Of a stretch of 64,000 nt of DNA, positions 11,149 to 52,490 are shown piece after piece. The notes below the pieces were generated by a model. It made no database searches. It was not told the DNA's origin and saw nothing but the letters and a program-made list of their open reading frames with translations. Each line of letters starts with the position of its first letter. The stretch's first letter is position 1. The position numbers were made by a program, and so were the translations under genes. The stretch is from contig MLAK01000560.1 in NCBI GenBank assembly GCA_001839685.1, positions 162,534 to 226,533 of the forward strand. Reading direction: 5' to 3'. This stretch comes from Tritrichomonas foetus. Taxonomy: Eukaryota > Parabasalia > Tritrichomonadida > Tritrichomonadidae.

Positions 11149-12654
11149 ATGTCTTGGAGAAAGAAAATTAATGTCGATATACGCATGATACATGAAGTCC
11201 GTCCATGTGTTTATGAAATTCCAATTGGTTTTGTTCCAAATATGAAAGTTCCTGGAATTTTTTATGCATCTCCTGAAATGGCACATTTGGCAATTCAAGA
11301 ATTACAAGATTGGCTTCCAAAACAAACAACTGGTGTTCCATCTATTTTACAAATTGCTTATACTGCAACTTTAGATTCTATTACAAAAGCATCATTTGGA
11401 ATGCCAGATATGCATAGTGGTTATGGATTTTCAATTGGTGGTGTTGCAGCTTTTGATTTATCTAATCCAAAAGCAATCATTGTTCCAGGAGGAATTGGTT
11501 ATGACATCAATTGTGGTGTAAGATGTATTGTCACTAATTTAACTAAAGCTGATGTTGAACCAGTTAAACATAAACTCATAGAAGCATTATATAAGAATAT
11601 TCCAGTTGGTATTGGTGGTAAAAAGAAAAAGTTTATCAAGAAAGAAGATATATATGAAATATGTATGAAAGGAGCTCAATGGGCATTAGAAAATGGATTT
11701 GGAGAAAGTGATGATCTGAAATATTGTGAAGAAGGTGGATGTGTTTCTTGGGCAGATGTGAAATGTGTTTCAGATCGCTGCATTGAACGTGGTTTAGATC
11801 AACTAGGAACAGTCGGGAGTGGGAATCATTATGTAGAAATTCAAACAATAGATAGAATATTTGATGATAAAGCAGCTAATGTATTAAATTTGCATAAAGA
11901 TCAAGTTGTTGTTATGATTCATACAGGTTCTAGAGGTCTTGGCTATCAAATTGCAAGTGATTGGATAGTTGAATGTGAGAAAAAGTGTAGTGATCCTAAT
12001 CTTCCAGATAAACAATATTCATACATTCAATATGATAGTCCAACAGGACGTAGGTATATGAAGTGCATGGGTTCCGCAATAAACTTTGGTTTCTGCAATA
12101 GACAAGTTATCACACATTTTGTAAGAGAATCTTTCCACCAAATCTTCCCTGATAAAGAAAACATGAAATTGAAATTATTATATGATGTTGCTCATAACAT
12201 TGCGAAAGTTGAAAAACATGCAATTAATGGCGAAATGAAGGAATTTCTTGTTCATAGAAAAGGGGCTACAAGAGCATTTGGACCAGGATCTTCAGAAATT
12301 CCTGCAGAATATAGATCAATTGGACAGCCTGTATTGATTGGCGTATCAATGGGAACAGCATCATACATTTTAGTTGGAACAGAAGGAGCAGAAAAGCAAA
12401 CATTTGGATCAACATGCCATGGTGCTGGAAGAGTTATGTCTAGAACACAAGGAAAAAGAGATATTAATGGACAAAAAGTTAAGAAAGATATGGATACCAA
12501 AGGAATTGAATTAATGACACCAAATAAAGATACAATCCTTGAAGAAGCACCAGAAACATATAAAGATGTAGAACAGGTTGTTAATACGTGTAAAACAGTG
12601 AATATTTCAAAGAAAGTGGCTAGATTACTTCCTCTTGGTGTCATTAAAGGATGA
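11149..12654 (+). CDS. rtcB: tRNA-splicing RNA ligase RtcB (HSPC117 family)
   Basis: A 501-residue RNA ligase, nearly the length of human RTCB. It joins 2',3'-cyclic phosphate and 5'-hydroxyl RNA ends in a GTP- and metal-dependent reaction, chiefly to splice tRNA halves. Metal ligands are visible: the D119-x2-C122 pair in GYDINCGVRC, H227 in GSGNHYVE, H258 in IHTGSRGLG and H349 in DVAHNIAKVE. The guanylylated histidine is H424 in STCHGAGRV. The N-terminal region (RPCVYEIP through GMPDMHSGYGF) is also typical. The frame is open throughout, without introns. The stop is TGA. In other eukaryotes the protein works in a complex with DDX1 and archease, none of which is encoded nearby. Confidence 0.97.
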   Translation: MSWRKKINVDIRMIHEVRPCVYEIPIGFVPNMKVPGIFYASPEMAHLAIQELQDWLPKQTTGVPSILQIAYTATLDSITKASFGMPDMHSGYGFSIGGVAAFDLSNPKAIIVPGGIGYDINCGVRCIVTNLTKADVEPVKHKLIEALYKNIPVGIGGKKKKFIKKEDIYEICMKGAQWALENGFGESDDLKYCEEGGCVSWADVKCVSDRCIERGLDQLGTVGSGNHYVEIQTIDRIFDDKAANVLNLHKDQVVVMIHTGSRGLGYQIASDWIVECEKKCSDPNLPDKQYSYIQYDSPTGRRYMKCMGSAINFGFCNRQVITHFVRESFHQIFPDKENMKLKLLYDVAHNIAKVEKHAINGEMKEFLVHRKGATRAFGPGSSEIPAEYRSIGQPVLIGVSMGTASYILVGTEGAEKQTFGSTCHGAGRVMSRTQGKRDINGQKVKKDMDTKGIELMTPNKDTILEEAPETYKDVEQVVNTCKTVNISKKVARLLPLGVIKG

Positions 12655-45849: not shown

Positions 45850-45921
45850 TCCTTCGTCGTTCATCGGTTAGGATACGTGGTTTTCATCCACGGGAGCGGG
45901 GTTCGACTCCCCGCGTCGGAG
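45850..45921 (+). tRNA. tRNA-Glu (anticodon TTC)
   Basis: A 72-base cloverleaf. The anticodon stem-loop is GTGG-TTTTCAT-CCAC with anticodon TTC, which reads GAA (Glu). The T arm CGGGG-TTCGACT-CCCCG contains a perfect B box (GGTTCGACTCC), and the D arm GTTCATCGGTTAGGATAC contains an A-box-like sequence. The acceptor stem pairs TCCTTCG with CGTCGGA, leaving mismatches at pairs 4-69 and 5-68, which is unusual. The discriminator base is G. The 3' 16 bases form part of the target-site duplication of the retroelement that starts two bases downstream. T-runs immediately follow and can act as a Pol III terminator. Confidence 0.92.
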
Positions 45922-45923
45922 AA
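45906..45923 (+). repeat. left target-site duplication of retroelement (18 bp)
   Basis: The sequence ACTCCCCGCGTCGGAGAA, comprising the 3' half of the tRNA-Glu T arm, the acceptor stem and two further bases, is repeated exactly at 52473-52490. Confidence 0.93.
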
Positions 45924-45955
45924 ATTTTTTCGTTTTTTTGCAGGAGCCTTTTTAC

Positions 45956-48900
45956 ATGGATATACCTACATATTCTGAATCTACTCCAGACAAGCTTTCT
46001 AATGATGCTATTCTCACCGAATTTCGTGATATTTTTTCAATCGAATCTCCAATATCATACGAGACATCTCACACTTCAGAACAAATACAACTATTCTCAG
46101 ACTCGCTGTCACCTAATCTATCTATTACACCGAGCGTTCAAACTAAACTACATTCGCTTCCCAGTTTTTCAGTTGATGCAGATTCGCAATCGTCCGACAG
46201 CCTTCTAAGTCCGCCAAATTACTTCCAAGACCGAATTTTCAACAACATGGAGTACAATATCATCGAAAATCCGCGACTTTCACCCACTGATATATATCTC
46301 GAGATTCAACATTGGGCCGGGAACTTTAAAATTAACAGAGATACTGGGCTTTTCTTAAGAGACTGCGATATCGATGATATTAATTACGATGGTCTCTTAT
46401 TTTTGGACGAAAAAGATATGGGTTTAGATAGTACTGATGAAGCTGAATCAGATAGCGGTGCGGCCATAATTGCATTCAATATTACGGATAGTTTTGTCTC
46501 TCAATTTGACTCAGATCTCCCTAATGATATGATATTCACGAATGATGATTCCTGTTCCTCTGGTCTATGCTCACTAGACNTTNCTTCTCGACTCCTTAAT
46601 ATCTCAAATGATGCTACACATGATGACTTAGAGAATAGTGACAACCAGAAAGATATTTCATTTAATGTTTTTTTACCACCTACAAATTCTACTTCTCTTC
46701 CCCCCATAGAGAACTGTAATCCAAGTAGGTCTATTTATGTTACAGATTTTAATACAAATGATATTGAAAATTCTGAAATCAATAATAATATTAATAATTC
46801 AAATTCATTTTGTAAAGATAAACAAATTTTATCAATAGATTTTACTAATTCATCACAAACTGTTACATCTAAAATCATTGAAGAGACTAATGATAATTCG
46901 AATGATGATATCGTTCCAGTCAATACTACTTCGAACAATATCAGTTCAGTGACTAGTTCAAATACTCCAGTTGACGATTCTCCGGAGATTAAGAATGAGG
47001 ATATTCACCCAACTTCTGGAACATTACCTATAGTCGAGTTTCCTCTTGATGAGGATGATTCACTCAATCCTTTTCCACATAATCGAAATACTTCTGCAAA
47101 CAGTGCTCTTCAAAAGATTCATGATGAATTTCAACAGAAACTACAATGTTATGATCAACAGAACATGTTAATGCTTTTACTTCTTTACCAAAATCAGCAA
47201 ATGAATGAAAGCAATAAATGTGAACTTAATCAACAGATAAATCATATGTTGTCAATAATTGACAACCAAAACGCACAAATCCAATCAATGCATTATATGT
47301 TTTCCCAGGTGATGGAACACAATCTTAATCATTTGGTTACTCAGCAGAACCATATTGCTCATGTCGGGTGCAACAGTGTTCTAGATCATCGGCTAACATG
47401 TAATAAAGCTATGGATGATGTAAGCACTCGACTACGATCAGAGTTTAACGACATCATCCTCAACCAATTAAACTTTCAAAATCGTGTTATTGAGAACTGT
47501 TTCTTTACTCTTTCACAAACAGTCCAGACTCTTCTAAATCAATCTCAACATCCAATATCTACTCCACATCTTAATAACAAAGTGAACTGTGACAGCAACT
47601 GCATGCTGAGCTATGCCCCCCAGGAGAACATGCTCTGTTCCTGTGTCACTAATGTGTCTAATCCGCAAGTTCCTATTTGTTCACATAATGAACAGCATTC
47701 CACACAAACTTCTGATGGTATCATCGTCTCCCACAATGTGCATGGTTCAGATGACAATTCATTTCGTTCCAATCCCAACTCCCCGTCAGGGTCAAGCGAG
47801 GATGGATCTCCTCCTAATCCTTTACCCCCTGATGATAGTGAGCCCTCCCAAGAGGATAACCAGACCCAACTCAAACAGAAGATTTATTCACAGCTCAGCT
47901 CTGTGAATTCTGTTGAAGAGCTTAACAGCCTAATTCACACTTGGATCGAAGAAGATATAATTGACACATCTCTCAATGAAGATGATGACCTTCTTATGGG
48001 GATGTATAAAACAAGAAACTATGTTTTTGGAGGTAAATTTGCATGTCCGCATGCAAACTGCTTTTGCTCTGTCAATACTGCCGCTAAAAGGAAGACACAT
48101 ATTTTGGAGAAGCATGACAATAGGAACATCAACCCACAAATCAGCATTCTAAACGCTATTCTTGAGACGAAATTAGTGTTTAAATGTAATAACATCAAAC
48201 TCATCCCATTCTTTTGCATGGAGAGAGATTGTGGTGCATTGTTCGAAGACGGAGAGAGCTTACGCAACCACATTACCAACGTCCATCGCAGCAACTCATC
48301 CCTGACTACCAAATTTGGATGGTTTTGGGGGCAGTTGATCGGTATTGCCAGGAGCAATAATTATGCACCTGGAATTCATAATTTTACTGCAGAAAGATTA
48401 TTATACTGTTGCAAACAGAACGACTGCTTTCGGACATCGAGGGCTGCAATTTCCTCTCATATCGCTCAGTCCACGCGCCCAGACCACTCCAATGCTAGGG
48501 TGGCTGGCTTCGGCTCCTATGTCATACAATCGAATCTTATTGTGACCAATGAAGATATTGATGCAACTCAAGAAGCAAGCGAGATAGAACATCGTTCCGC
48601 TCCGGGTACTGATGTATCGGATGATGGTGAAAGGTTACATGACGAAGCTATATGTAGTGAAGAAGATCACAATGAAGGAACTCATAACGTCTCCCTTCGC
48701 TCGGATTCAGCTAGATCATCAAATGTAACTGGGATCGCTCCATCTTTTGATGAAGATGAATCCGATGTGCTTAGGACTAATGACGCTGGTCCGGATGCTT
48801 CATCGCGTCTTGGGGATGCGGTACAGAGAAGGAATAAGGCACTTCGTTGGAGGATGAAATATAAAATATTAGAAGAGAGTGGTATCAGTACTCCATATCT

Positions 48901-51900
48901 CAACAAAGCGTTTAGATCACGTGTGAAGAAAGGGTTAAGCGATTTGTACAAGAACAAGATTATTCCGCTGTTGGAAAGTTACTTTCCTTCCAATGAAACG
49001 GAAGATTGCTGGTTCCAATTTGAAGGTGCTCTCTTCAAAGCCACACACATTTTAGCGAAACATACCTTACATTCAATTGGCAAACCGAAAGAAGCACTTT
49101 CTAAGAAACCACGACTTGTTAAAGACTACATTAAGATTCTCAATACCGCTGCACAACATAACAAAGACATCAACTCAGCTGTGAAACTGACTAAGTTCAT
49201 TCGGGAATACGATTCCTTGTTGAAGGCTAACACCGATAATGAGACTACTCGAAATTCACTCGGTCGACTTGAGGACATTATCATTCATGTTGCTGGCAGT
49301 TGCAATGATGAAATCTTGAGGCACTTTGGAGTCGGTGATTCACCTGACACACTAAGAGGTTTCGTCAGTCAATCGGAGGAGTGGAGGTCCAAGGCCCTTG
49401 AATGGCTCACAGATTATGCTAACCACCTCATGAACCTCAAAAGTGAGAAGATCACAAAGCATGAAATTAAAAGATGTCAAGAGCTTTACGATGATAGTCC
49501 CCGTAAAGCTATGCAAAGATACGTTTGGCCAGATGCATATCCATTTTGCGATATTGACATTCGCAATGTTGAAGAACATTTCACTAACGATTGGTCATTT
49601 TCTCCACAATTTCAAGAAGCTGATCATGACTCAGTATGGCATCTGGATCGCATCATCGATGAGGAGGATATGAAACAATTCTGGATCGACTTTATTGATG
49701 AGAAGGAGATCATGAAGATTGTTCAAGATAGAAATCCAGCCTCGTCACATGGATCGGATGCTCTTTCAAATGCTGTTCTTTCTCTGGAACCAAAACACGC
49801 TGTGAAATTCATACTTATCTTGTTGAAAGCAATTAAATGTACAAAGAGAACACCAGATAACTGGAAGCACAATAAGACCATTCTCTTGTTCAAGAAGAAT
49901 GATTCTTCAAAGATTAATAATTGGAGACCGATTACTGTCACATCGGTGATTTACAGGACTGTCATGTCCCATATCGCACAATGTTTCCAGAAGCTCAATG
50001 ATCGCTGTACATATATTTCACCTGAGCAAAAAGGGTTCAGGCATCTTGTCAATGGATGCTTTAATCACACTGCTGCAGTTAATGAACTAATGAGGCATTG
50101 TTATCGTTCAGGGCAAGATTTCCTTGCAGCTACACTTGATCTTTCAAATGCTTTCGGCTCAATCAACCATCGTCTAATCTTTTCGACGATGCAACAGATG
50201 GGATTCGACAATGCGATTGTTACAATCATTAAGGATTTCTATAAGGGCACGGATTCGGTGATTTCTACACATCGTGGTCGTACAAAACCTATCAGGATAC
50301 GGCGAGGTGTCAAGCAAGGTTGTCCGTTGTCGCCGATCTTGTTTGATATCGCAATTGAGCCATTGGTCAGATATGTTAAGAAGAAATCAATTAGATATGG
50401 AATTATTACCTCAAACTCGACTACTACAATCCATTCCGCCATCCAAGCTTACGCAGACGATATTGTATTGCTCAGTAATTCGGAAGAGGGATTACAACGC
50501 TTGCTGGATGTTGTTTCAGAGTTCTCAGGCTTCTCTTGTATTGGTGTTAATCCAAGTAAATGCGCTATTACTTCTTATATTCGACAGAATCGGAGCAGAG
50601 TACGTTCTGCTTTCCCTTTCTCAATTCATGATGAGGAGATTCCTCACATTGACATAAATGAGTTCAAGGAATACCTTGGCGCTCCGATTGCGAGATCACA
50701 TGTCGTTAACCTCTTACATACTGACAGGTTGGTCGAGGAGTTGACCAACAAGATCAACTTAATTTTTAAGTCGCCTCTTCGAATAAATCAAAAGGTTGAC
50801 GCTCTGAAAAGATTTGTCATTCCTTCTATGGACTTCGAGATGCTGACAAATTCATTTAGAGCGAATGACATGATCAAACTCGATAAACTCATTCGTTCTC
50901 TGGTAAACAAACATATCAAACAGTTATCCACTCCTATACCCTTCTTTCACACTTCTTGGAGGGATGGGGGACTTGGCATTCAATCTCTACATGAACGTCT
51001 CTACGCATTTCGGCTTAAGCAGTGCGGTGAAGTCTTAACGTCCACTGATAACCATACAAAACAACTTTTCTCAATATGGTTGGAAGAGGAGGAGAGGCTT
51101 CGCAACATTGCCAAGGCAGATGATGACGATGTTTCCACGTTCCTTGACTGGAAGGTTAAATCGGATGGCTCGCTGGATCAATCCCATAACGGAACAGATT
51201 GTATTTTCATCAGAGCTTTTAAGGCAACACGAAAACTTCGCTTAGAGCTGCATATTAGTGAAGATGGAGATATAATTATTTCCAACGCGGATAACAAAGA
51301 GAAATTTACTGTACATTCAAAATGTGTGATGCGAAAAATTGTGCAGATCCTTTACAAACGCTGGCACTCCAAGCTGGTGTCAATGAAGATGAAAGGCCAT
51401 ACATTCACTACACTCTACAACAACAAGATTAGCAATTTTTACTTCTCTCCGAGCCCTCCGAATGTTAATGACAACTTGTTATCTTTTACTATTGCTGCCA
51501 GATGTAACAATCTCCCCACTGGTGAGGTAATCTCACATAATAATGAAACTCCCGAGTGCAGACTATGCAACAAACAACTTAAAGATACTCTTGCTCACAG
51601 ACTTAATAATTGTGACCCAAAGAAATCGAAGTATACAATTCGACACAACAAGGTAGTGCAAGAAGTTATGGCATCTCTAAAGAAGGCTTCTCGAATTCAG
51701 TTTGTATTTCATGAAAATACTACGATCTCACTCAGGGGTGCTCCACAGCTTCCTCCTAGCGTTCGAAACCTCAGACCAGACCTTTGGTTTGTTAATCCTG
51801 CTAATGGCGTGTTGAACATTGTGGAGGTCACTGTTCCTTATGGACAGATGGATGACAGAACAGATTGTGATCCCCAATCGACTTTAAAGCTGCGTATGGA

Positions 51901-52357
51901 GGAAAAGCTGCAAAAATACTTACCTTTAGTAAAAGCTGTTGAAGATGCTATTAACATCAAAGTCAATCTCTATGTCATTGTTGTCAGTTCACTTGGCGCA
52001 GTCCCTTCCTCAACTCTCGTTTCGCTCAGAAAATTGCTGTTTAATAATAAAAGACTTGCTGAGGCCACTGCAAGGAAGATTTCACTTGCTGCAATCCGAG
52101 GAAGTGCTTTAATATATTGGAATATTCGGATGAATGCAGGTGAAATTGATGCCAATGGCTCAGCAAACTTGGGTGATAATGAAGTGAACTCCAGTGATGA
52201 CCAGGTGATTGACCCGGATGACACTCTCTTTACCGACTCGCAGTTTGCGACAGACCAGACCAATCATGATGTCGTTGGTGATGTCAGTCCCTTGGGGGAG
52301 GGACTTATTCATTTCTCGACATCTGCTTCTGAATATGATGGTCTAAACGACATGTGA
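45956..52357 (+). CDS. retroelement polyprotein: zinc fingers, reverse transcriptase, restriction-like endonuclease
   Basis: A 2133-residue protein from the ATG at 45956; an upstream TTG extends the frame by six codons. Residues 1-690 are Asn/Ser/Asp-rich and largely disordered. Three candidate DNA-binding zinc fingers lie at about 695-722 (CPHANC...H...H), 750-780 (CMERDC...H...H) and 816-847. The reverse transcriptase (about 1258-1620) has D1395 in ATLDLSNAFGSINH, RRGVKQGCPLSPILFD and YADD at 1499-1502. A CCHC knuckle, C1868-x2-C1871-x9-H1881-x4-C1886, is followed by an endonuclease with P1941-D1942 and E1957 (RPDLWFV, then IVEVT) and a downstream EEKLQKYLPL. These match the R2-type restriction-like endonuclease. 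The enzyme should nick the tRNA locus and prime cDNA synthesis there. Residue identity is undefined at two codons because of N bases. Confidence 0.93.
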   Translation: MDIPTYSESTPDKLSNDAILTEFRDIFSIESPISYETSHTSEQIQLFSDSLSPNLSITPSVQTKLHSLPSFSVDADSQSSDSLLSPPNYFQDRIFNNMEYNIIENPRLSPTDIYLEIQHWAGNFKINRDTGLFLRDCDIDDINYDGLLFLDEKDMGLDSTDEAESDSGAAIIAFNITDSFVSQFDSDLPNDMIFTNDDSCSSGLCSLDXXSRLLNISNDATHDDLENSDNQKDISFNVFLPPTNSTSLPPIENCNPSRSIYVTDFNTNDIENSEINNNINNSNSFCKDKQILSIDFTNSSQTVTSKIIEETNDNSNDDIVPVNTTSNNISSVTSSNTPVDDSPEIKNEDIHPTSGTLPIVEFPLDEDDSLNPFPHNRNTSANSALQKIHDEFQQKLQCYDQQNMLMLLLLYQNQQMNESNKCELNQQINHMLSIIDNQNAQIQSMHYMFSQVMEHNLNHLVTQQNHIAHVGCNSVLDHRLTCNKAMDDVSTRLRSEFNDIILNQLNFQNRVIENCFFTLSQTVQTLLNQSQHPISTPHLNNKVNCDSNCMLSYAPQENMLCSCVTNVSNPQVPICSHNEQHSTQTSDGIIVSHNVHGSDDNSFRSNPNSPSGSSEDGSPPNPLPPDDSEPSQEDNQTQLKQKIYSQLSSVNSVEELNSLIHTWIEEDIIDTSLNEDDDLLMGMYKTRNYVFGGKFACPHANCFCSVNTAAKRKTHILEKHDNRNINPQISILNAILETKLVFKCNNIKLIPFFCMERDCGALFEDGESLRNHITNVHRSNSSLTTKFGWFWGQLIGIARSNNYAPGIHNFTAERLLYCCKQNDCFRTSRAAISSHIAQSTRPDHSNARVAGFGSYVIQSNLIVTNEDIDATQEASEIEHRSAPGTDVSDDGERLHDEAICSEEDHNEGTHNVSLRSDSARSSNVTGIAPSFDEDESDVLRTNDAGPDASSRLGDAVQRRNKALRWRMKYKILEESGISTPYLNKAFRSRVKKGLSDLYKNKIIPLLESYFPSNETEDCWFQFEGALFKATHILAKHTLHSIGKPKEALSKKPRLVKDYIKILNTAAQHNKDINSAVKLTKFIREYDSLLKANTDNETTRNSLGRLEDIIIHVAGSCNDEILRHFGVGDSPDTLRGFVSQSEEWRSKALEWLTDYANHLMNLKSEKITKHEIKRCQELYDDSPRKAMQRYVWPDAYPFCDIDIRNVEEHFTNDWSFSPQFQEADHDSVWHLDRIIDEEDMKQFWIDFIDEKEIMKIVQDRNPASSHGSDALSNAVLSLEPKHAVKFILILLKAIKCTKRTPDNWKHNKTILLFKKNDSSKINNWRPITVTSVIYRTVMSHIAQCFQKLNDRCTYISPEQKGFRHLVNGCFNHTAAVNELMRHCYRSGQDFLAATLDLSNAFGSINHRLIFSTMQQMGFDNAIVTIIKDFYKGTDSVISTHRGRTKPIRIRRGVKQGCPLSPILFDIAIEPLVRYVKKKSIRYGIITSNSTTTIHSAIQAYADDIVLLSNSEEGLQRLLDVVSEFSGFSCIGVNPSKCAITSYIRQNRSRVRSAFPFSIHDEEIPHIDINEFKEYLGAPIARSHVVNLLHTDRLVEELTNKINLIFKSPLRINQKVDALKRFVIPSMDFEMLTNSFRANDMIKLDKLIRSLVNKHIKQLSTPIPFFHTSWRDGGLGIQSLHERLYAFRLKQCGEVLTSTDNHTKQLFSIWLEEEERLRNIAKADDDDVSTFLDWKVKSDGSLDQSHNGTDCIFIRAFKATRKLRLELHISEDGDIIISNADNKEKFTVHSKCVMRKIVQILYKRWHSKLVSMKMKGHTFTTLYNNKISNFYFSPSPPNVNDNLLSFTIAARCNNLPTGEVISHNNETPECRLCNKQLKDTLAHRLNNCDPKKSKYTIRHNKVVQEVMASLKKASRIQFVFHENTTISLRGAPQLPPSVRNLRPDLWFVNPANGVLNIVEVTVPYGQMDDRTDCDPQSTLKLRMEEKLQKYLPLVKAVEDAINIKVNLYVIVVSSLGAVPSSTLVSLRKLLFNNKRLAEATARKISLAAIRGSALIYWNIRMNAGEIDANGSANLGDNEVNSSDDQVIDPDDTLFTDSQFATDQTNHDVVGDVSPLGEGLIHFSTSASEYDGLNDM

Positions 52358-52371
52358 TGTGAAACACATCA
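52355..52371 (+). other. perfect 7-bp hairpin at the retroelement stop codon
   Basis: TGATGTG-AAA-CACATCA forms a perfect stem with a triloop, and its first three bases are the TGA stop codon. It opens the 3' untranslated region, which in R2-type elements is the part recognised by the reverse transcriptase. Confidence 0.7.
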
Positions 52372-52472
52372 AATAACAATACTTTATTCTTTTTGACTTT
52401 TAGTCGTCTCCGGGTAGGTGGATTTATGATGATGACGCCCTCTACCTTCTCCTACTCTTATGATATTAGTAA

Positions 52473-52490
52473 ACTCCCCGCGTCGGAGAA
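52473..52490 (+). repeat. right target-site duplication with tRNA 3' fragment
   Basis: An exact copy of 45906-45923. It is followed by TCTTTTTTTTTTTT, which is presumably the original Pol III terminator of the tRNA-Glu gene, now separated from it by the element. Confidence 0.93.

Follow-up and report, generated by a model that had tools for sequence, protein, structure and literature searches.

The window analysed here, a stretch of 64,000 nucleotides from the cattle parasite Tritrichomonas foetus (assembly GCA_001839685.1, contig MLAK01000560.1, positions 162,534 to 226,533 of the forward strand), contains a tRNA-Glu(TTC) gene that is directly followed by a retrotransposon without long terminal repeats (non-LTR element), behind which the 3' end of the tRNA is repeated. 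The features of the locus, which include a reverse transcriptase (RT) and a restriction-like endonuclease (RLE) in a single open reading frame (ORF) and a 3' untranslated region (UTR), are as follows:

45850..45921, + strand: tRNA-Glu(TTC) gene, the target, with discriminator G73 at 45921 (ARAGORN; Rfam RF00005, 38.6 bits; compared with 12 other rows)
45906..45921, + strand: target-site duplication, 5' copy (A58-G73), the sure part being T60-G73 at 45908-45921 (repeat and copy comparison)
45922..52472, + strand: non-LTR element, 6,551 bp (identical 5' start in 7/7 copies with a 5' end, identical 3' end in 8/8)
45922..45939, + strand: T-rich start AAATTTTTTCGTTTTTTT, borne by the element, a possible RNA polymerase III (Pol III) terminator for the tRNA (constant in 7/7 copies)
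45956..52357, + strand: single ORF, 2,133 aa counted from the first in-frame ATG as the presumed start codon
48044..48115, + strand: zinc finger 1, CCHH (motif search)
48215..48286, + strand: zinc finger 2, CCHH (motif search)
48407..48487, + strand: possible zinc finger 3, with looser spacing (motif search)
49892..50575, + strand: RT domain with YADD at 50450-50461 (Pfam RVT_1, E 6.9e-32; motif; fold)
51557..51613, + strand: CCHC zinc knuckle (motif; alignment of 51 sequences)
51641..51919, + strand: RLE motifs RHN, RPD, E and K (conserved in the aligned families; motif search)
52358..52472, + strand: 3' UTR with GTAA at its end; a GTAAAC motif spans the UTR end and the duplication (motif search)
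52473..52488, + strand: target-site duplication, 3' copy ACTCCCCGCGTCGGAG, followed by the trailer AATCTTTTTTTTTTT (repeat and copy comparison)

The tRNA-Glu target and the copies of the element

The element is flanked by the 18-bp direct repeat ACTCCCCGCGTCGGAGAA (copies at 45906-45923 and 52473-52490), which a sequence-only reading of the locus had taken for a duplication of the tRNA-Glu 3' end. The repeat recurs at all eight assembled 3' ends of this family and is therefore not a chance match, but comparison of the copies narrows the shared part to 14-16 nt of the 18, which begin at T60 or A58 and end with G73. The final two A's of the repeat come from the element or the trailer, because the copy on contig C681 has GAG-GA on its 3' side and GAG-AA on its 5' side. 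The 3' trailers begin with AATC, AATT, AAAT, GATT or AATA, as opposed to the element start AAATTTTTTCG in all seven copies, and the trailer in the window is T-rich. The tRNA sequence is not part of the element's own consensus: the repeat of each copy is followed by an unrelated trailer, and four tRNA-Glu genes are empty.

The assembly searched comprises 63.7 Mb in 1,064 contigs, which is under half the 148 Mb given for strain KV-1 in the accessible part of the genome paper (PMC11415386), so that all copy counts are lower bounds. The 3' end of the element was found at nine places, which represent eight copies with the same 3' junction and one empty tRNA-Glu. Insertions at unrelated sequences were looked for among the assembled copies, but all eight 3' ends stop at the same base of tRNA-Glu and all seven 5' ends lie directly after the tRNA, which bears out the earlier proposal of a site-specific family. 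A search with the tRNA as query yielded 17 rows, 13 for Glu(TTC) and four for Glu(CTC). The element 5' end is present in seven of the Glu(TTC) rows, four are empty, and two are cut by a contig end and represent one duplicated locus (C504 and C156).

The upstream flanks of the seven occupied loci and the downstream flanks of the eight 3' ends show no mutual similarity at E up to 1e-3, indicating that the copies are separate insertions. Over the aligned pieces (nine contigs, the window's included), the copies are 99.66-100% identical to the one in the window. The whole frame is open in three copies, whereas the others are interrupted by a gap, the end of a contig or a break in the frame. Near-identity and open frames together indicate recent activity.

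The encoded protein contains zinc fingers, RT, the CCHC knuckle and the PD..E..K endonuclease motifs in the order claimed by the sequence-only reading. Its frame is open even further upstream, from inside the tRNA to the stop at 52357. A Pfam scan of the protein gave no match to the N-terminal zinc fingers (two clear, one looser by motif) and detected no apurinic/apyrimidinic endonuclease (APE) domain; the endonuclease present is the RLE. The RT is of the type found in long interspersed nuclear elements (LINEs), and its sequence is best matched by R2, with L1 in second place. Among the 51 aligned sequences of the knuckle, C672, H685 and C690 (numbering of the aligned piece) are invariant and C675 is conserved in at least 90%. 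A profile of seven families matches the CCHC-RLE part of R2Tg with an i-Evalue of 3.2e-20; the match of the single element protein is weak (i-Evalue 0.039). Viral RNA polymerases and spliceosome entries among the VIA-align rows are taken as a reflection of the shared polymerase core. A structured 3' UTR was rejected, as the predicted fold of the Glu-element RNA is no better than that of shuffled sequences (z 0.33) and the fold of the Ile family is weak (z -1.52).

Related families at other tRNA genes

Sibling families on seven further tRNA isoacceptors, which the sequence-only reading had missed, emerged from a protein search of the same genome. The tRNA genes considered are a sample: 63 of 3,420 tRNA candidates were scored and 40 of these 63 fetched, of which ARAGORN named 39. 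tRNA-Ile(GAT) lies directly upstream of the elements on C74, C910, C1057 and C300 and likewise upstream of a diverged, Ile-like element on C235; tRNA-Tyr(GTA) precedes the elements on C508 (in a gene with a 12-nt intron) and C857, and tRNA-Cys(GCA) that on C582. By the 3' junction alone, the targets are tRNA-Thr(TGT) on C121, tRNA-Lys(CTT) on C1008 and tRNA-Asp(GTC) on C284. The Asp string that follows TTCG occurs at 16 places, and all four that were fetched are tRNA-Asp genes. Judged from these junctions, the genome appears to harbor elements with eight isoacceptor targets, five of them supported by both junctions and three by the 3' junction. Each family keeps to one isoacceptor (Glu 8/8 at Glu(TTC), Ile and Ile-like 5/5 at Ile, Tyr 4/4 at Tyr). 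Protein identity is 26-41% between targets and 53% between the two Tyr lineages (best local matches; the Lys family is left out). The first 300 bases of C248, C668 and C494 (loci L064, L065 and L066) break at the same 15 nt behind tRNA-Met(CAT), as expected if a repeated element starts behind this tRNA.

When 28 element 3' regions were formally tested against 21 tRNA 3' ends (16 isoacceptors), 25 of the 28 contained such an end with no more than two mismatches in 14. The match to the 14-mer T60-N73 is exact in 19 regions (eight Glu, four Ile, three Tyr, and a single region for Cys, Asp, Thr and Lys each); five regions have one mismatch (the Ile-like end on C235, a second Tyr end on C508 and three Met ends) and one has two (a second Lys end on C1008). 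Of 280 control regions obtained by shuffling two-base blocks, one reached two mismatches and seven had three; no control did better than two.

The junctions of these families follow a common geometry. On the 3' side, the Ile and Met elements are followed by tRNA sequence from T60 onward. Lys shows agreement at base 59 as well, and for Glu, Thr, Tyr, Cys and Asp the matching stretch starts as early as A58, possibly as a genuine part of the duplication or by coincidence with the final bases of the element. On the 5' side, 15 of the 16 ends have the first base of the element immediately behind base 73 (seven for Glu, four for Ile, two for Tyr, and one each for the Ile-like element and Cys). Junctions at these positions imply a 3' overhang of 14-16 nt whose refilling restores the tRNA. 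In the case of Cys, the 312 bp that begin with the 3' tRNA piece are identical to the tRNA end plus element 5' end, and in Ile and Tyr related element 5' ends follow the junction; these tandem arrangements indicate that the restored tRNA was hit again.

The element ends have further traits in common. A run of 5-9 T's lies within the first 11 nt of the five 5' ends examined (four families). In the Glu element, the first run (six T's) begins at nt 4 and is part of the element, because it is constant in seven of seven copies while native trailers differ. Judging from its sequence, such a run could act as a Pol III terminator for the tRNA. An RTAAA motif starts 4-13 nt before the junction in all 13 listed 3' ends (13 of the 28, C204 included), which are not independent because the families share descent. 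Motifs of this type are possibly poly(A) signals, as in trichomonads.

Proposed insertion mechanism and alternative explanations

From the target, the junctions, the duplication, the restored tRNA, the T-run and the tandem re-insertions, as they are read in the sequences, we infer an order of strand cuts in which the element protein would bind the tRNA gene and nick the bottom strand across from the T loop, in front of base 58-60. The element RNA would then be copied at the nick by target-primed reverse transcription (TPRT), from a 3' end bearing the RTAAA(C) motif, and the top strand would be cut directly after discriminator base 73. Filling of the 14-16-nt stagger would restore a full-length tRNA upstream, open to renewed insertion, whose transcription the element's own 5' T-run might terminate. 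It is very probable, in our assessment, that the element in the window is a recently active RLE non-LTR retrotransposon specific for tRNA-Glu(TTC), which represents one of eight tRNA targets of a single lineage and inserts by this mechanism.

Several observations weigh against this interpretation. The Met element on C751, which is the sole exception among the 16 5' ends, begins inside tRNA-Met(CAT) and breaks that tRNA. The Thr, Lys and Asp targets are known from 3' junctions, on one contig each. The exact 3' ends of the three Met regions with one mismatch have no tRNA match in the assembly, and three of the 28 regions in the formal test gave no match: C876 (six mismatches), C204 (four) and C3 (three, within the range of the shuffled regions). 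On C876 (locus L091), a Met-like element 3' end does not lie at a tRNA. The contrast in occupancy between Glu(TTC) genes and the four Glu(CTC) genes, all of which are empty (7/11 vs 0/4; Fisher p 0.077, or 0.029 with the two cut rows counted as occupied), makes specificity for the former suggestive only. In a fold comparison by Z score, the chains of human L1 ORF2p (34.0 and 33.9) tie with R2 (34.8), with fewer residues aligned (527 at a root-mean-square deviation of 3.6, 692 at 4.6). Finally, the 5' acceptor strand of the tRNA in the window is TCCTTCG, as opposed to TCCGACG in the other 12 of the 13 tRNA-Glu(TTC) rows, which amounts to two acceptor mismatches; together with one D-loop change in the tRNA of C756, this indicates that a restored tRNA gene need not stay functional.

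Some of these cases have particulars of their own. The end on C876 could be an off-target copy or the product of a later rearrangement. A tRNA-like 3' end on C204 was considered and rejected, as the string behind TTCG is absent from the assembly; on C3, the element end was not recognised. The tRNA-Glu gene in the window may be decaying.

Among the alternatives, the one that survives best is compatible with the proposed mechanism and concerns the origin of the exact 5' end. In R2, this end is made by a ribozyme, according to the accessible part of the source (PMC3414825). In T. foetus, the tRNA itself might serve as the processing signal, if host tRNase Z cut a read-through RNA after base 73. 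The start of the element at the following base in all 5' ends except that of the Met element agrees with such trimming, as do the frames that are open into the tRNA and the outcome of an Rfam search (E up to 1), which detected no ribozyme at the element 5' end, although diverged ribozymes could be missed. By contrast, the T-run at the start of the element is expected to halt Pol III before it can transcribe the element, and initiation by Pol II at the first base or close to it would yield the same end. Moreover, the nearest upstream ATG of the Ile family (loci L039 and L040) consists of A73 of the tRNA and TG of the element and would be destroyed by such a cut, and the starts of the Ile-like and Cys elements are known from one copy each. 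A literature search for tRNase Z together with non-LTR retrotransposons found nothing, and we regard trimming by tRNase Z as a possibility on the doubtful side.

Recognition of the Pol III machinery, or of tRNA genes in general, as reported for TRE5-A of Dictyostelium via TFIIIB, appears improbable. It would fit the fact that the assigned targets are tRNA genes cut at a homologous point in the T loop, where one geometry suits many tRNAs; the T loop forms part of the B box. However, no family was found at more than one isoacceptor, and TRE elements insert over a range of distances, as far as the accessible text describes them (PMC5911963), rather than at one base. The weakest alternative, a spread of tRNA-element units by segmental duplication or gene conversion with an inherited shared site, has in its favor the near-identity of the copies and the duplicated locus on C504 and C156, but the unrelated flanks rule out that segmental duplication produced this site and other families show the same geometry at their own tRNAs, which leaves this explanation hardly any probability.

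The T. foetus families bear on how RLE elements choose and change their targets. Because related families in one genome hit homologous short targets that differ at few bases, the code that links protein and target should be readable by comparison; R2 proteins are reportedly under development for gene insertion. The design shows an element that sits inside an essential gene class without breaking that class. Tentatively, and with considerable reservation, the families may be viewed as an RLE lineage specialized on tRNA genes, whose members moved between isoacceptors, share one tRNA-rebuilding geometry, bring their own Pol III terminators, and replaced the ribozyme by tRNase Z trimming. If this were true, the tRNA genes of the host would offer a series of safe sites that can be used repeatedly, and the families would amount to a natural collection of endonucleases with altered targets.

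Relatives and known systems

The phylogeny of the RT is based on an unrooted tree of 69 rows and 860 columns (Lys family left out), in which R2 is represented by two rows from solved structures (R2Tg and R2Bm, the latter covering 48% of the columns). Animal and oomycete rows group with both R2 sequences (support 0.994; UFBoot 100 in a second tree), whereas the T. foetus families fall on the other side of the split, together with most of the metagenome relatives chosen and one protein of T. vaginalis. The initial classification as an R2-type element thus holds for the domain order but not for membership in the R2 clade, outside of which the element appears to be placed.

In the tree, metagenome relatives stand between the T. 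foetus families (P0243 and P0002 beside Ile, P0016 and P0008 beside Tyr, P0041 beside Asp), suggesting that these families are probably older than the species. The existence of two Tyr lineages that are only 53% identical but share one target indicates that elements can inherit their target and keep it even when they have diverged far. The T. vaginalis protein P0281 (31%) lies on the T. foetus side of the tree but is not a sister.

Further relatives of the Tyr lineage are encoded by L102, L103 and L104 (54-57% identity to P0016, 41-42% to the T. foetus Tyr family). These three contigs belong to a metagenome-assembled genome labelled Lachnospiraceae (GTDB record CAMWTP01); as eukaryotic-type retrotransposons, they are probably a contamination of the reference genome. 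At its end, L102 has AATAAACG and, a short distance further on, CCACACGGGAGGA with a T-run behind it, which could be the 3' end of a tRNA-Tyr (C1-G72 pair, A73); there is no tRNA on the contig, and the case was not counted. Nor was the N-terminus of P0010 (MQVRVLPSA), which resembles a translated tRNA T arm, counted as evidence. A ubiquitin hydrolase domain (PF00443) lies beside the RT in the metagenome relatives P0007, P0014, P0020, P0034, P0035, P0044 and P0302. It may be another acquired protease, Ulp1-like proteases having been reported in some NeSL and Utopia elements in the accessible part of the source (PMC4640811). No relatives in viral contigs were confirmed in two scans. Elsewhere in the window, at 11149-12654, an RtcB-type tRNA-splicing ligase is encoded (Pfam PF01139). 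A DnaJ protein encoded nearby shares 65% identity with one from Tritrichomonas musculus, which points to a parabasalid host; DnaJ proteins listed under T. foetus reach only 49% and 33% and would be paralogues. All three 60-residue segments tested from a database protein of T. foetus recur unchanged in contig C581 of the assembly.

The Dictyostelium element TRE3 is of the L1 type, with an APE, and inserts 40-150 bp downstream (PMC5911963, accessible part), whereas the T. foetus element has an RLE and inserts at one exact base. Dada of Perkinsus marinus resembles the present case in that five families in one protist each use their own tRNA genes, but these are DDE-type DNA transposons and not retrotransposons, as stated in the accessible part of the source (PMC3706591). 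The likeness to R2, which resides in the 28S rRNA gene, comprises the order of zinc fingers, RT, CCHC and RLE in one ORF, the fold, and the insertion into multicopy RNA genes. The element differs from R2 by its location at tRNA-Glu (8/8) instead of 28S rRNA, its 14-16-nt duplication, its position outside R2Tg and R2Bm in the tree, and the lack of an Rfam match, with the same caveat for diverged forms, to a ribozyme like the hepatitis delta virus-like one at the 5' end of R2.

The closest known counterparts are other non-LTR elements of the RLE group. We presume that TV in the name NeSL-1_TV stands for Trichomonas vaginalis, another trichomonad, and P0281 may be this element. The suspicion of the sequence-only reading that an RLE element at a tRNA gene is a new kind of target is contradicted by Kojima and Jurka (2015), who, in the accessible part of their paper, describe NeSL-1_TV as specific for tRNA-Pro and the planarian LIN25_SM and LIN15_SM as specific for tRNA-Glu and tRNA-Arg (PMC4640811). 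The T. foetus element is of the same kind, with a fixed site in one type of tRNA gene; the likeness concerns the target gene. Each of those elements is described with a single tRNA target, as opposed to the eight found in the T. foetus genome. The T. foetus genome paper, in its accessible part, gives LINE totals without targets and does not contain the words non-LTR and retrotransposon (PMC11415386), and a literature search of titles and abstracts, with most subscription journals outside its scope, found no description of a multi-tRNA radiation of RLE elements. Although RLE elements at tRNA genes (tRNA-Pro, -Arg and -Glu) are already known, the apparent use of eight tRNA targets with one cut geometry in a single genome is new.
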